From Pelagibacteraceae bacterium AG-426-E17 (GTDB taxonomy: Bacteria; Pseudomonadota; Alphaproteobacteria; Pelagibacterales; Pelagibacteraceae): DNA of 64,000 nt. This document shows positions 11,829 through 41,053 of this stretch, piece by piece. A program made the translations under genes and the position numbers. How positions within the stretch are numbered: position 1 is the first letter of the stretch; each line of letters begins with the position of its first letter. A model generated the notes under the pieces. It was not told where the DNA came from and did no database searches. It was given only the letters and a program-made list of their open reading frames with translations. The DNA lies in assembly GCA_003210095.1 (NCBI GenBank), contig QCNP01000001.1, forward strand, positions 790,001 to 854,000, read 5' to 3'.

Positions 11829-12221
11829 ATGGAAATTTTTAAACCAATTAATGAAAAAAAAGCCAAAGGCAAAGTCAAAAAAATTTTTAGTGAAATTAAA
11901 AAAACGAGAAAAATATCAAAAATACCAAATTTTTGGAGATCAATTGCACATAATCCTGCACTGCTTGAAAGAACTTGGAATAGTCTTAAAGCAATTATGA
12001 AAGATGGAGCTTTGAATGCTGTTACAAAAGAGTTAATTTATGTAGCTGTTTCAATTACTAATAGCTGTGGATATTGTACAAGATCACATACATTTGCTGC
12101 TAAAAAGAAGGGTGCAACAGATCAAATGATAAAGGAAATGATTGACGTTGTTGGTATAGCAAATCAAAATAATAAATTAGTTGAGGCTTATCAAGTAGAA
12201 GTAGATAAAATTTATAAATAA
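11829..12221 (+). CDS. Carboxymuconolactone decarboxylase / AhpD-like protein
   Basis: A 130-residue all-helical CMD family member with the AhpD-type redox signature: Glu68, Cys80-x-x-Cys83 and His87 (SCGYCTRSH). The CxxC with His suggests alkylhydroperoxidase or disulfide-reductase activity rather than the decarboxylase. A strong AGGAGG precedes the ATG. The start of an SMR transporter gene lies 1 bp after its stop, so they are likely co-translated. Confidence 0.82.
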   Translation: MEIFKPINEKKAKGKVKKIFSEIKKTRKISKIPNFWRSIAHNPALLERTWNSLKAIMKDGALNAVTKELIYVAVSITNSCGYCTRSHTFAAKKKGATDQMIKEMIDVVGIANQNNKLVEAYQVEVDKIYK

Positions 12222-35925: not shown

Positions 35926-36141
35926 ATGGGTTTTATGAGTGGAGAAACACAAAGTCTTAATAATAAAAATCATTTAGAAAACCATTTTGAAAATAAACAA
36001 AATTCAAAACCTAAAGTAGATATTAATCAACTTTTAAACCGAGTAAGAGACGAGAAAAAAAAAGAGAGAAAAGAAAATTTATTACTCTTAAGCTTGGTGG
36101 GTTCGGTAATTGTTATAACTGGAATTATAGCATCGCTATAA
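35926..36141 (+). CDS. Small tail-anchored membrane protein (71 aa)
   Basis: A polar, Asn/Lys-rich first 50 residues with a charged helix (QLLNRVRDEKKKERKENL) and a single C-terminal hydrophobic segment (LLLSLVGSVIVITGIIASL). The shape suggests a tail-anchored inner-membrane protein facing the cytoplasm. No family recognised. An alternative ATG at 35935 would drop three residues. Overlaps the convergent regulator gene by 6 bp. Confidence 0.55.
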   Translation: MGFMSGETQSLNNKNHLENHFENKQNSKPKVDINQLLNRVRDEKKKERKENLLLLSLVGSVIVITGIIASL

Positions 36142-37137
36142 TATAACTACGTTTAATAATTTAGTCATCATATGCACTAAATTAATTGAATTATCTTTTC
36201 TTATTAAATCAACTTCTTTATAAATTTTTTCATATTCCGATTTTTTTGAAGATGTTTTAGAACCTCCAAAAATTAAGTACAAATTTTTTTCGTCTTTAAT
36301 CAAAAATTTATTTTTTACAAGTATATTAAGCTTTCTTAAGACAGTTGGTCTAGGGATCCCTGTTAATTCTGAAATGGTCATTGCATTTAAACCTTGAGTA
36401 CCAAAATTATTTAATCTATCAATAAATGTGTCATTTAGAGTTTCAGGCGCCAAATTTTCTTTAAAAGTTTTATTCATCACTAAATTTTGGTTATAAACAC
36501 AATTTCCCCATATTACCCAAGATTCTAAATCATTAAATAATTTCTTCCACCTTATGAGTAAGGGTAATTGCCAATCAAAAAAATACTGCCAACATTGAGT
36601 AAAATTTGCTTTAATTTTTTTTTCAATATCACTATTAGGTATTCTACTTTTTAACACCTTTTCATAACTTAGACCTTCACTAAAATAAGATATTAATCTT
36701 GATAAATTAGTAATAGAGATAGTTGGCTTTTGAAACTCTTGTCCCTTTCTATTTATCAGAATATTCTTTTTATTCTTTTTTAATACACCTTCTTTTTCTA
36801 ATTCTATTAGTTTACGTCTAGCTGTTTCTTTGGAAATTAATAAATCTTTGGATAAACTTATAATATTTATTTTTTGGATTTCAAAACTTTCATAAGAGTA
36901 AAATTCATCAAAATTATAGACTTTTAAGTGTTCGTTATATGCTTTGAAAACTTTATTTAACAAGTAGCATAAAATTAAATATTTATCGAAATCTTTAAAT
37001 CTTTCATAAGCATTTACTAACCACCTTTGTTGAAAATAAAATTGTTCTGTAATGAGTTTGTCATGATTTTTTATAAATACTTCGTATGCTTGCTTTTCTT
37101 GAATTTGTGTAGAAAATTTAAAATCTCTTGATGCCAT
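36136..37137 (-). CDS. Putative regulator with two winged-helix domains
   Basis: 333 aa, cytoplasmic. Two helix-turn-helix units: ISLSKDLLISKETARRKLIE (about 95-114), followed by a wing, and MTISELTGIPRPTVLRKLNI (about 254-273). A MarR/Crp-like tandem in one chain is unusual, and no ligand domain is recognised between them; the middle has an aromatic/Trp-rich segment. Divergent from the BASS transporter (106 bp apart), so it likely controls that gene. It might also act on the sulfonate genes to its left. Confidence 0.6.
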   Translation of the reverse strand: MASRDFKFSTQIQEKQAYEVFIKNHDKLITEQFYFQQRWLVNAYERFKDFDKYLILCYLLNKVFKAYNEHLKVYNFDEFYSYESFEIQKINIISLSKDLLISKETARRKLIELEKEGVLKKNKKNILINRKGQEFQKPTISITNLSRLISYFSEGLSYEKVLKSRIPNSDIEKKIKANFTQCWQYFFDWQLPLLIRWKKLFNDLESWVIWGNCVYNQNLVMNKTFKENLAPETLNDTFIDRLNNFGTQGLNAMTISELTGIPRPTVLRKLNILVKNKFLIKDEKNLYLIFGGSKTSSKKSEYEKIYKEVDLIRKDNSINLVHMMTKLLNVVIL

Positions 37138-37243
37138 TTTTAAAATATAAAAAGTAATCTCAATATTCTGCTAATTACAAGCTCAAAATGAACAAACTTT
37201 TGATGAAATTTATGATAGATTGTATATAAAAATATTAAGGGAA

Positions 37244-38098
37244 ATGGAATTTGTAAAAAATGTAGGTCCACTTGGCATGATATTTATCATGTTCTCTCTA
37301 GGACTAAACCTAACAGTTAAAGATTTTTTAGAGGTGGTTAAAAAACCAAGAAACTTGGTAATAGCATTAATATGTCAAATGATGATTTTACCAATCATTG
37401 GAATAATTATTATATCCTTTTTCCCTATGCAGGCAGAATTTCAGCTAGGTGTTTTTTTATTACTTATATTACCTTCTGCAGTTATGTCTAATTACGCTAC
37501 TAAATTAGTAAAAGGAAATGTAGCTTTATCAATAACAATTACTTCCTTTTGTGCTTTAGTATCTTTTATATCAATTCCTATATTTCTTAAAATTTATTCA
37601 TCTTTTTTTTCAGATGTTGAATTTGACTTAAATTTACTAAAATTTTCTGTAAGAATGTTTCTGTTTATAGCTTTGCCCACATTCGTTGGTATTTTGGTTA
37701 GAGGTAATTTCAAAAAATTTTCTGAGCAAAATAATCTAAAATTTGATAAAGCAGCCTTTTTTCTGTTCATACTAATTGTGTTTATAGCTATCTTAACTGA
37801 AAGAGATAACTTAGGTGGTTACTTTGTTGATGTTGGGGCTATATCTTTTACTGTTATAGTAAGTGTTTTAACAATAGTTTATCTTATAACCAGATTTACT
37901 TTAAAAGAAGTTAAGATTCAGAGAACTATAATGATTGAGGCTATGCTTCAAAATGGTGCAATGGGATTGATTGTTGGAGCTCAACTATTTCACGAATTAG
38001 AGTATATGACACCAATAGCTGTATATGCTCTTATACAGTACGTTGCATTGATGTTTTATATAGGCAATATCAATATTAGTAAATTATCAAAAAATTAA
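37244..38098 (+). CDS. Bile acid:sodium symporter (BASS) family transporter
   Basis: About 284 aa with nine to ten predicted helices. Family blocks are GMIFIMFSLGLNLTVKDF, then LLILPSAVMSNYATKLVKG (substrate/Na+ crossover) and MIEAMLQNGAMGLIVG. Imports organic anions with Na+; the substrate is unknown. ATG 37244 is preceded by AAGGGA. The upstream TTG at 37220 is a weaker alternative. Confidence 0.8.
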   Translation: MEFVKNVGPLGMIFIMFSLGLNLTVKDFLEVVKKPRNLVIALICQMMILPIIGIIIISFFPMQAEFQLGVFLLLILPSAVMSNYATKLVKGNVALSITITSFCALVSFISIPIFLKIYSSFFSDVEFDLNLLKFSVRMFLFIALPTFVGILVRGNFKKFSEQNNLKFDKAAFFLFILIVFIAILTERDNLGGYFVDVGAISFTVIVSVLTIVYLITRFTLKEVKIQRTIMIEAMLQNGAMGLIVGAQLFHELEYMTPIAVYALIQYVALMFYIGNINISKLSKN

Positions 38099-38140: not shown

Positions 38141-38470
38141 ATGAAATTAAATTTAAAAAAATTCTTAATAATTTTAATTACCTTTTTAATTTACACAAAT
38201 GTTTTTGGAGAAGAAAAAAGTTATAATTGTGAAAATTTAGAAACGTATGAAAAAGCTCATATAGTCTATCATAAAAACTATGCTAAAGAAGAAATGCATA
38301 AGAATATTTGGTTATTTTTTCAAACCAAAACTATTGCAAATGACAACCTCAATCTAGTCAGTTTTGCTGATGGAAAGCCAATTAGAGAGTGGAAAATCAA
38401 TTTATTATCAGGTGAAGCAACTTTAACACCAATGTTTGACCCAATTTCAAAATGGATTTGTAAAAATTAA
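38141..38470 (+). CDS. Small secreted hypothetical protein
   Basis: 109 aa with a signal peptide (KFLIILITFLIYTNVFGEE). The mature domain is about 85 residues with two cysteines (CENLETYEK and the C-terminal WICKN) that could form a disulfide. No family recognised. 42 bp after the BASS transporter on the same strand. A periplasmic role is inferred. Confidence 0.55.
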   Translation: MKLNLKKFLIILITFLIYTNVFGEEKSYNCENLETYEKAHIVYHKNYAKEEMHKNIWLFFQTKTIANDNLNLVSFADGKPIREWKINLLSGEATLTPMFDPISKWICKN

Positions 38471-38498
38471 TTTTTTTTAATATAAAGTTCATAAATAT

Positions 38499-38575
38499 GG
38501 CGGGATAGCTCAGTTGGTTAGAGCGCGGGACTCATAAGCCCGAGGTCAGTGGTTCGATCCCACTTCCCGCTACCA
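38499..38575 (+). tRNA. tRNA with CAT anticodon (Met elongator, or Ile2)
   Basis: A 77-nt cloverleaf with encoded CCA: acceptor GGCGGGA/TCCCGCT, D-arm GCTC..GAGC, anticodon loop CTCATAA, T-arm AGTGG TTCGATC CCACT. Most pairs are canonical; the base of the anticodon stem shows A31 against G39. CAT can mean elongator Met or lysidine-modified Ile2; not initiator, since the initiator features are absent. This copy is taken as functional, in contrast to 40528. Confidence 0.9.
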
Positions 38576-38964
38576 AAAAAGTAAATCAATTCAATCCTTT
38601 TCGAAGTAACTTAAACGTAAAGGAGTTAGAATAAGCGATTTTGCCTAACCTCAAAAAGTATAGGAAAATAATAACATTTAGGAATTTTAATTTTACGGTA
38701 CGTACCATATGCGTACCGTCTTTTTTTGTTTCTAAAGTTTATTCTCTGATGAGTTATATATTTAGAGCCTTGTACACTTGATTAATAAGGTGAGTTATTT
38801 ATTCAATCATTATGATAATCAATTATTATAAATTTGGCTATATTCATGATTTGTTAAAAAGTTACAGTTTTAATATGATTAAAAAAACTAAAATGACGTT
38901 TAGAAAATCATTTGAGTACATGTATGAAAATAAAAGATTAAATAATTAAGATTAAGCAAATTAA
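38576..38964. other. 389-bp gene-poor spacer after the tRNA
   Basis: No supported gene. It holds one strong terminator (38695-38719) with unexplained sequence before it. A 24-codon frame near 38875-38949 has no ribosome site and looks spurious. No intact integrase is seen. The stretch lies between two copies of the same tRNA gene, so it may be what is left of an inserted segment. Confidence 0.5.
38695..38719 (+). terminator. Intrinsic terminator downstream of the tRNA
   Basis: ACGGTACG (38695-38702) pairs perfectly with CGTACCGT (38712-38719), with a 9-nt loop, followed by CTTTTTTTG. It lies 120 bp after the tRNA, so it ends the tRNA read-through or an unrecognised small RNA. Confidence 0.75.
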
Positions 38965-40389
38965 TTATTTTTTTAATCTAAGTTTATAATAAGATGAAAT
39001 TACTATATAAAACATTCTAATTGCGTTAGACATAAGAGAAGTCATTTTAGTACCTTCTTCTTTTCTTTCGTAATAAGTAACAGGTACTTCAGTAATTTTT
39101 AAATTATTTTTATAAGCTCCTATTAAAAGATCAAAGTCACCCCATAAGTCTTTAGTTCCCCATTTCGATATATCTTTTTTGATTTTTGCCCAATCTTTCT
39201 TGTAAAATATTTTTGTACCACACAATGTATCTGTGATTTTTTTTTTAAACAGCAGGCTGAATAAACTTGCAAAAATGCTATTACCAATAAAATTAACAAA
39301 CTTCATAGCACCTTCTTTTTGAGGATAAATCATTCTTGTACAGTTAATAAAATCTGCATTAGTACTGTTTAAAATATTCAATGAAAATTTAATATCTTCA
39401 AAACTCACTGTTAAATCTGCATCATATATTACAATTATTTCTCCACTTGAATACTCAATGCCTTTATAAACATTTTCTGATTTACAGATGCCTGGACCTT
39501 TATATTTGACTATGTTGTTATTCGGAAGTTTTTTAGATAACTTTTCAATTTCTTCATAAGTATTATCTGTAGAATTATCATCACCAAACAAATATTCATA
39601 AGATTGATTATTATTTATAATTTCATTTTCAAATAATTTGATATTATTTTCTTCATTTTTACATGGAATAATGAATGAAACTTTTTTATTTATATTTTTT
39701 TCAAAATTTTGATTAATTTTTTTTAAAATTGTTACGTTATTCAGGCAAAAAATATTAAGTATTGGTAATCTAAAAATTCTATTTACAATCGTTGTAATAA
39801 AAGGAATATAAATAGGGATTACTATCAGCCTTTCAGTTCTTACAATTTCTAAATTACAACTTGAATAAAGATTATTTAAATACGATGAAGGAAGAAAATT
39901 ATTTTTTACAGGTGAAAAATCAAAAAAAATTTTTAAAAATTTAATAAAAACCATCCAAGTTAAATTTTTCGACAATATTACTATTTTCGCATTATCTTTA
40001 ATAAGTCTCGAAAGATTTAATAAATTTGATGTTGGGTTCGATTGATGTTCGATATCAGCTATTAAAACAGTGTCACATTCTGAAATATGTTCACTTCGTA
40101 TTTTATTGTCATAATAAATATTTTCACCGTAATTAATTTCATAATTATTATCTATTTCCTTAATGTATACCTTTTTCGCATTAATATTTTTTCCAATTGA
40201 AGAATTTCCAGCACAAAAAATAAATATATTTTTTGTTTCATCTATACAATTATTTATAAAGTTTGAAATTTCATTAAATAAAAAATTTTTTTTTTTTAAA
40301 AATTTGAGCCTTTTTTCATATTTTAATTTAAAAAAAGATAAACTCGATTGTAGGTAATATTCATCTTTTACAATCTTTGACATATTCAC
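38965..40389 (-). CDS. Methyltransferase-like / glycosyltransferase family 2 fusion
   Basis: 474 aa from GTG 40389 (ATG 40383 is possible; AAAGGAAC precedes). The first about 225 residues have a degraded class I methyltransferase-like layout (FIFCAGNSSIGKNI; ECDTVLIADIEHQSN), then a GT2 domain: VSFIIPCKNEENNIKLFENE, DDNSTDNTYEEI, YDADLTVSFED and GTKDLWGDFDLL. A polyprenyl-phosphate sugar or surface glycan transferase is likely, with modification by the N-domain. Bracketed by the two tRNA copies, it is the only gene in that interval. Confidence 0.75.
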   Translation of the reverse strand: MNMSKIVKDEYYLQSSLSFFKLKYEKRLKFLKKKNFLFNEISNFINNCIDETKNIFIFCAGNSSIGKNINAKKVYIKEIDNNYEINYGENIYYDNKIRSEHISECDTVLIADIEHQSNPTSNLLNLSRLIKDNAKIVILSKNLTWMVFIKFLKIFFDFSPVKNNFLPSSYLNNLYSSCNLEIVRTERLIVIPIYIPFITTIVNRIFRLPILNIFCLNNVTILKKINQNFEKNINKKVSFIIPCKNEENNIKLFENEIINNNQSYEYLFGDDNSTDNTYEEIEKLSKKLPNNNIVKYKGPGICKSENVYKGIEYSSGEIIVIYDADLTVSFEDIKFSLNILNSTNADFINCTRMIYPQKEGAMKFVNFIGNSIFASLFSLLFKKKITDTLCGTKIFYKKDWAKIKKDISKWGTKDLWGDFDLLIGAYKNNLKITEVPVTYYERKEEGTKMTSLMSNAIRMFYIVISSYYKLRLKK

Positions 40390-40527
40390 GTTCCTTTTTA
40401 ATCAGTTTTTAAATTTTTAAAATTATTAGTTAATATTAATAATATTATAATTTATTTAATTTAAAATAAGAAAAATCTTCTTGAAATAAATTAAGAATTA
40501 AGGTTAATACATTCTTCATTATATTAT

Positions 40528-40604
40528 GGCGGGGTAGCTCAGTTGGTTAGAGTGCGGGACTCATAAGCCCGAGGTCAGTGGTTCGATCACACTTCCCACT
40601 ACCA
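40528..40604 (+). pseudogene. Second, degraded copy of the CAT-anticodon tRNA
   Basis: Differs from 38499-38575 at only 4 of 77 positions, and every change weakens pairing. Acceptor A7 becomes G (G-U), D-stem C25 becomes T (G-U), T-stem C61 becomes A (G-A mismatch) and acceptor G70 becomes A (C-A mismatch). Anticodon and CCA are intact. Either a decaying duplicate or a marginally functional tRNA. Confidence 0.7.
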
Positions 40605-40606
40605 AA

Positions 40607-41053
40607 TTAATGGCAGGCAATATTATATTTTTTTAATCTCCAATAGTTATATGGCCAAGGTGTTAAAAAACCAACTAGCAACATTATTGGTACTACCCAC
40701 CAAGTTAGCGTTGCACCACCTGTAAGATAATAGTCAGTTACATTCATTGCAGTTTCCATACTAATCATTGAAATAAAACTCATACCAATTGCTGTATTAA
40801 ACGCCTTAGAAAAACTTAATTTTTGCTTCATCAATATTATTGTTTCAAGAATGATACTAGTAATCAATCCATTAATTATTGCTAAAGTCATAATTCCTAG
40901 AACAGGAAATGGAATTTTTGTTAGTTGAAAAAATAAAATTGTTCCAAAATCTCCTATTGAACAACCAAGCAAACACCATGCAGTGTTTTTGGCACTTCTA
41001 TTCCATGTGTGCCTACAAGCCCAATGGAAACTCGATATTGAAGATTTTTGCAT
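40607..41053 (-). CDS. DUF4396 membrane protein
   Basis: 148 aa, four hydrophobic segments. Family sequence is visible: AWCLLGCSIGDFGTILFFQ, then METAMNVTDYYLTGGA and FLTPWPYNYWRLKKY, with a terminal Cys-His. Cys/His/Met residues in membrane segments suggest metal handling. Its start overlaps the cupredoxin stop by 1 bp, and the pair probably act together on copper. Its stop lies 2 bp from the tRNA remnant. Confidence 0.8.
   Translation of the reverse strand: MQKSSISSFHWACRHTWNRSAKNTAWCLLGCSIGDFGTILFFQLTKIPFPVLGIMTLAIINGLITSIILETIILMKQKLSFSKAFNTAIGMSFISMISMETAMNVTDYYLTGGATLTWWVVPIMLLVGFLTPWPYNYWRLKKYNIACH

Follow-up and report, generated by a model that had tools for sequence, protein, structure and literature searches.

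The pair of tRNA genes and its surroundings

The window, by which we mean the whole stretch of 64,000 nucleotides analysed here, comes from a Pelagibacter (SAR11) genome assembled in 5 contigs totalling 1.15 Mb, with 99% completeness and 0.02% contamination. ARAGORN found exactly two tRNA genes in it, both CAT and both on the + strand, at the places where the original prediction had put them (Table 1). An Rfam scan of positions 38400-40700 returned only the tRNAs above threshold; weak matches to SraC and the L20 leader in this interval were below the gathering score and were discarded. The tRNA set of the host genome, taken from an Rfam search, comprises 33 genes, and the elongator tRNA-Met (tRNA-eMet) is the only duplicated one, so that the duplicate is indeed as unusual for this genome as had been supposed. 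The other CAT tRNAs lie elsewhere, and we take them, from general knowledge of the initiator, Ile2 and elongator types, to be one initiator-like (cgcggggtggagcag...) and one Ile2-like (gggcctgtagc...) tRNA. Chance is ruled out as the origin of two full-length copies 2 kb apart in a genome of 1.15 Mb.

The pair sits in a sugar island between a GcvT-like/DMGDH gene and apt-mtnP. The island around the tRNA is hypervariable, with gene sets that differ across the genus, which agrees with the variable island first suspected from the surface-sugar genes on both sides. The core of the tRNA is also present in Pelagibacteraceae (SAR11) single-cell genomes. To the left of the pair, the product of the small exported-protein gene is ~54% identical to those of genes of 138-139 aa that occupy this position in relatives, and is devoid of the C-terminal 'LYKSGALSGYEFEKAKKKLL' segment found in their versions. 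Further left, a regulator-like gene (36136-37137) is only ~60% identical to its counterparts in relatives, the neighbouring genes being 90-95% identical; a separate allele exchange is possible there.

Table 1. Features in and around the segment delimited by the two tRNA copies (window positions)
Feature	Position	Strand	Remarks
SBF-family transporter, native left neighbour	37220..38098	+	90-93% identity to its counterparts in the five nearest genomes
Small exported-protein gene, 109 aa	38141..38470	+	Left edge of the rearranged stretch
Probable promoter of copy 1	38458..38486	+	TTGTAA (38458-38463), 17 nt, TATAAA (38481-38486); by eye and by alignment to relatives' tRNA promoters
tRNA copy 1, elongator tRNA-Met (CAT)	38499..38575	+	One derived change, G7A; 65.9 bits
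236-bp segment	38576..38811		Without a good match among 270 genomes from the genus
Terminator-like hairpin, 10-bp stem, T7 tail	38695..38729	+	~120 bp downstream of copy 1
Remnant of FkbM-type methyltransferase gene, last 43 codons	38812..38949	+	63-65% identity to genes adjoining the glycosyltransferase homologue
GT2 glycosyltransferase, 474 aa (PF00535)	38965..40389	-	Homologues 66-80% identical in a pntA-adjacent sugar island
Upstream region of the glycosyltransferase gene	40390..40517		DNA homology to the glycosyltransferase homologues ends at 40500-40517
tRNA copy 2, elongator tRNA-Met (CAT), decaying duplicate	40528..40604	+	C26T, C62A, G70A; 44.9 bits
DUF4396 gene, native right neighbour	40607..41053	-	Directly after the single tRNA in G420, G277, G093 and G032

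Copy 1 is presumably functional and copy 2 is decaying

Of the 77 positions of the tRNA, four (7, 26, 62 and 70) distinguish the two copies, and their identity stops at the tRNA ends, both as originally described. All four changes had been assigned to copy 2 and read as weakening it, and this proved true of three. The elongator tRNA-Met is nearly invariant across the genus, and its consensus carries G at position 7. The derived state there, G7A, is therefore that of copy 1, in which it converts a G-U pair into A-U, strengthens the pair and lifts the score to 65.9 bits, against 62.6 bits for the consensus of the relatives. The three changes derived in copy 2 each weaken a stem: C26T in the D stem, where G10-C25 is now G-U, C62A in the T stem, where a pair is broken, and G70A in the acceptor stem, which leaves a C3-A70 mismatch. 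The covariance-model score of copy 2 is 21 bits lower than that of copy 1, and the cloverleaf is no longer its most favourable predicted structure (-19.4 against -28.3 kcal/mol). Copy 1, with a predicted fold of the cloverleaf type, has both the score and the fold of a canonical elongator tRNA-Met gene and is presumed to be the working one. To judge from its sequence, copy 2, whose acceptor, D and T stems are no longer intact, is decaying through these three changes, in line with the decay that had been predicted.

The tRNA of the relatives is preceded by a conserved stretch of the form TTGTTTGAATGAAAAAAAATAAGTAGTATAAA, and alignment with it brought out the probable promoter of copy 1, which was missed by a consensus scan because that scan requires T as the last base of the -10 box. 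Upstream of copy 2, neither this stretch nor its -10 box is conserved; the DNA there matches, up to 40500-40517, the upstream region of the glycosyltransferase homologues. A weak promoter may lie ahead of copy 2.

The insert derives from another sugar island

The 1.95 kb between the copies (38576-40527) consist of the 236-bp segment, the methyltransferase remnant and the GT2 gene with its upstream region, the right junction lying 10-27 bp ahead of copy 2. The original prediction had seen a single glycosyltransferase gene in this interval. The GT2 gene is the only intact gene there; the description left out the methyltransferase remnant and the 236 bp with their strong terminator. This last segment could hold a hidden small RNA or could be the end of the donor DNA.

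Homologues of the glycosyltransferase were found in 22 of 399 genomes, the host genome included. In the seven genomes that we examined, they belong to a different sugar island, and at the loci mapped among these the homologue adjoins an FkbM-type methyltransferase or epimerase gene, together with the pntA genes. The DNA common to the insert and these loci runs from 38749/38811 to 40500/40517, that is, it begins inside the methyltransferase gene. The host genome keeps a pntA island of its own, with a different methyltransferase allele and other neighbour genes. The match to a foreign island, the truncated methyltransferase gene and the different resident pntA island together indicate, at the level of sequence comparison, that the insert was broken off from an alternative pntA-adjacent sugar island of the kind present in other Pelagibacter.

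We also considered that the glycosyltransferase might be a tRNA-borne cassette elsewhere, and rejected this since all seven homologue loci examined were devoid of this tRNA nearby; no genome was found in which the gene was already joined to it. No integrase gene was found between copies 1 and 2, and the whole host genome has one PF00589 gene, of Xer size.

The nearest relatives carry one tRNA at the same site

The nearest genomes (G420, G277, G093, G276 and G032) were reached via the right-hand junction, that is, the tRNA plus the DUF4396 gene. All five show the same order: the SBF transporter gene, the homologue of the 38141 gene, a gene for a 328-aa glycosyltransferase and one perfect full-length tRNA, followed directly by the DUF4396 gene in four of the five, a small methyltransferase gene intervening in G276. 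G277 additionally carries, upstream, a tRNA fragment 1-63 and a 2.6-kb cassette, of class B as defined below. The window differs from all five in that the 328-aa glycosyltransferase gene is gone, the 38141 gene is truncated and tRNA, insert and tRNA follow one another where a single tRNA stands. The outer neighbours are native on both sides, so that the relatives present the empty site of the insert, and the 328-aa glycosyltransferase in the five relatives against the 474-aa one in the window is the pattern of a replacement-type sugar island. Because the 328-aa gene and the end of the 38141 gene are missing, a separate deletion or replacement also happened. The arrangement is thus not one fixed in all relatives.

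Gain of a segment at a tRNA locus and gene duplication followed by decay had been proposed as alternatives. The single tRNA in five relatives, the foreign-island insert and the decayed copy 2 support both of them together, and we consider it likely that a foreign piece of ~1.95 kb was inserted at a single ancestral tRNA gene with duplication of that gene, copy 2 decaying afterwards. Duplication and insertion would have been one event, probably by recombination, homologous or Campbell-like, between the resident tRNA gene and a second tRNA copy on the incoming DNA. The insert would have brought in the fragment of the pntA-type island, namely the broken methyltransferase end, the whole GT2 gene and the region upstream of it. 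Copy 1 would have retained the native left side with the promoter and would do the work. Copy 2 would have kept the native right side, its conserved promoter having been replaced by the DNA upstream of the glycosyltransferase gene, and is probably not expressed; with its promoter replaced, it would no longer be selected and would be decaying.

That two haplotypes were wrongly joined in the assembly at a 77-bp repeat seems to us hardly credible. Such an artefact would fit with the tRNA being repeated in the population and with the contigs of several relatives ending at it or just upstream of it. Yet the copies are not identical, with four differing positions, two distinct junctions bound the insert, and the pair sits on a contig of 966 kb in a genome of the completeness and purity given above.

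Repeated insertion at the elongator tRNA-Met gene across the genus

Across the genus, the tRNA was present in 222 of 300 genomes, 37 of which had two or more matches to it; among genomes at least 90% complete, 9 of 40 carry extra copies. The window genome is alone among the 37 in having two full-length tRNAs. The extra copies in the other genomes are partial and their ends are stereotyped. In class A, the full tRNA comes first and a 3' fragment, which starts at 24/25, 27/28, 31 or 33, lies downstream of it; in class B, the order is reversed, with a 5' fragment that ends between 44 and 63 (most often at 63) upstream of a full tRNA with its own promoter. Taken together, the second copies extend from 1-44 to 1-63, or from 24-46 to 77. 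The elements between the copies are cassettes of ~0.5-5 kb in two polarities, with a cargo of mostly one to four genes without an integrase, and they are stacked in G133, G125, G199 and G271. Loci with such cassettes include L302, L303, L304, L306, L311-L328, L132 and L134, and further ones are L147-L149, L158, L179, L187 and others.

A GC-containing 6-mer repeated at 11-bp spacing, within at most 100 nt to the right of the left copy, was seen in 32 of 43 events, which are partly non-independent as related elements recur, against 0 of 99 single-tRNA loci and 0.34% of random windows. These repeats look like integrase arm sites. Phage-type integrases lie at the same tRNA in three genomes, G308 (L308:5163-6107), G211 (L314:1537-6564) and G246 (L315:7935-12010). 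In G211, the element resembles phage satellites in that it also carries a small terminase gene and one that is AAA-domain/primase-like; the G246 element has a primase-like gene. The GATCACA arms of the G211 satellite recur in the integrase-less cassettes of G101, L138 and G011, which suggests that the integrase-less cassettes moved in trans. The phage side was searched as well. In IMG/VR viral contigs, the tRNA core, the right end of the class-A cassettes and the GGTCCACT arms all lacked an exact match, and the G211 integrase had no relative; in phage records, the class-A end matched in tRNA genes only, and the same integrase had only distant relatives, at 31% in the best matches.

The elongator tRNA-Met gene is thus a recurrent insertion site in the genus. 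We would put at about even the chance of a more specific reading: a large pool of cassettes of one to a few genes, most of them without an integrase, would share this gene as their attachment site, and satellite or phage integrases would move them in trans. The cassettes would insert in two polarities, restoring either the 3' or the 5' part of the tRNA, and would sometimes be stacked in tandem; the window pair would be one outcome of recombination there.

Three further observations were made in the course of this survey. A cassette with a protease gene and tRNA-eMet fragments at both ends (L068:8735-10266 in G011, L069:9374-10900 in G027) lies away from the tRNA, between hisE and a TRAP transporter gene, and probably reflects integration at a secondary site. 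At L291:4782-4856, a tRNA fragment 1-63 plus cassette DNA scores 34.4 bits, above the Rfam tRNA gathering score, so that automatic annotation would count the fragment as a tRNA gene. The single-contig genome G106 has two 33-77 fragments, one of them inverted (L301:9012-9056 and 12165-12209), ~9-12 kb past the contig start, and a full tRNA at the contig end (L310:9846-9922).

We then asked how far the window pair resembles these cassettes. It could be a degraded product of the same site-specific system, inserted by a tyrosine integrase and later deprived of its repeats and ends. It has the locus and the orientation of the sister events, an insert whose 1.95 kb falls within their typical range of 0.5-5 kb and, as in these, a functional copy on one side and a dead copy on the other. 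We nevertheless judge this unlikely. The sister events leave a partial second copy, never 1-77, and the arm repeats that accompany most of them are absent within 100 nt of either junction in the window. The sole 6-mer repeat of the right spacing (CGTACC, 11-bp spacing, at 38701) was rejected as an arm site, being 126 nt from the tRNA and part of the palindromic terminator. Moreover, the insert begins inside a broken gene. The window pair therefore shares a locus with the cassette system, but not demonstrably its mechanism.

One other locus (L205:3678-4748) has two full-length tRNA-eMet copies, ~0.9 kb apart and without arm repeats; they enclose a single sulfotransferase-like gene, and each is preceded by a promoter-like stretch. 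This layout is what one would expect if a local tandem duplication of the tRNA had come first and the sugar-island fragment had been inserted between the copies later. Such an order of events is, however, improbable in the window: adjacent full copies without an insert were not found in any genome seen, and a tandem duplication usually includes flanking DNA, while the identity here ends exactly at the tRNA ends. The window pair and L205 may instead share another route, for example, homologous recombination between a resident and an incoming tRNA gene, which is the type of recombination that we favour above for the window.

Significance and comparison with known systems

The pair is a real, non-ordinary but local event, and the hot spot is of greater interest than the pair itself. 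In SAR11, for all its small and streamlined genomes, surface-sugar genes differ widely among close relatives, and little is understood of the way in which pieces are acquired. In the present case, DNA enters repeatedly at one essential tRNA gene, and pieces of one sugar island can be transferred into another. If it is true that integrase-less cassettes move in trans, this would be a simple, testable route for the exchange of single genes in the most abundant ocean bacteria. As a practical matter, dead copies and attachment-site fragments inflate the tRNA counts of such genomes.

In the literature searched, mostly outside subscription journals, we found no paper on tRNA-Met cassettes in SAR11. 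PICI-like phage satellites carry an integrase, a primase and a small terminase; such elements lie at the same tRNA in G211 and G246, but none of their genes is in the window. In SAR11 phages, an attachment site has been described in tRNA-Leu for a pelagiphage (PMC3861242). The tRNA-integrated genomic islands defined by Islander (PMC4383910) resemble the window in their insertion at a tRNA, an intact and a dead copy that mark the ends, and variable genes. They differ in that their dead copy is a displaced fragment, both copies in the window being full length, and in the integrase and arm repeats, which are absent from the window. Tycheposons, known from Prochlorococcus and bordered by tRNA-Met in Methylophilaceae (PMC10872708), share with the window a streamlined marine bacterium as host, a tRNA border, also of Met type, and a variable cargo. 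In the descriptions cited in PMC10872708, however, they measure 4-200 kb and carry a tyrosine recombinase, as against an insert of 1.95 kb devoid of recombinase in the window. Finally, the cell-wall glycosylation islands of SAR11 are of the replacement type and split the rRNA operon (PMC7318151). The window is like them in the exchange of a glycosyltransferase gene between otherwise syntenic genomes, and unlike them in that the exchange lies around tRNA-eMet instead of splitting the rRNA operon and left a duplicated tRNA behind.
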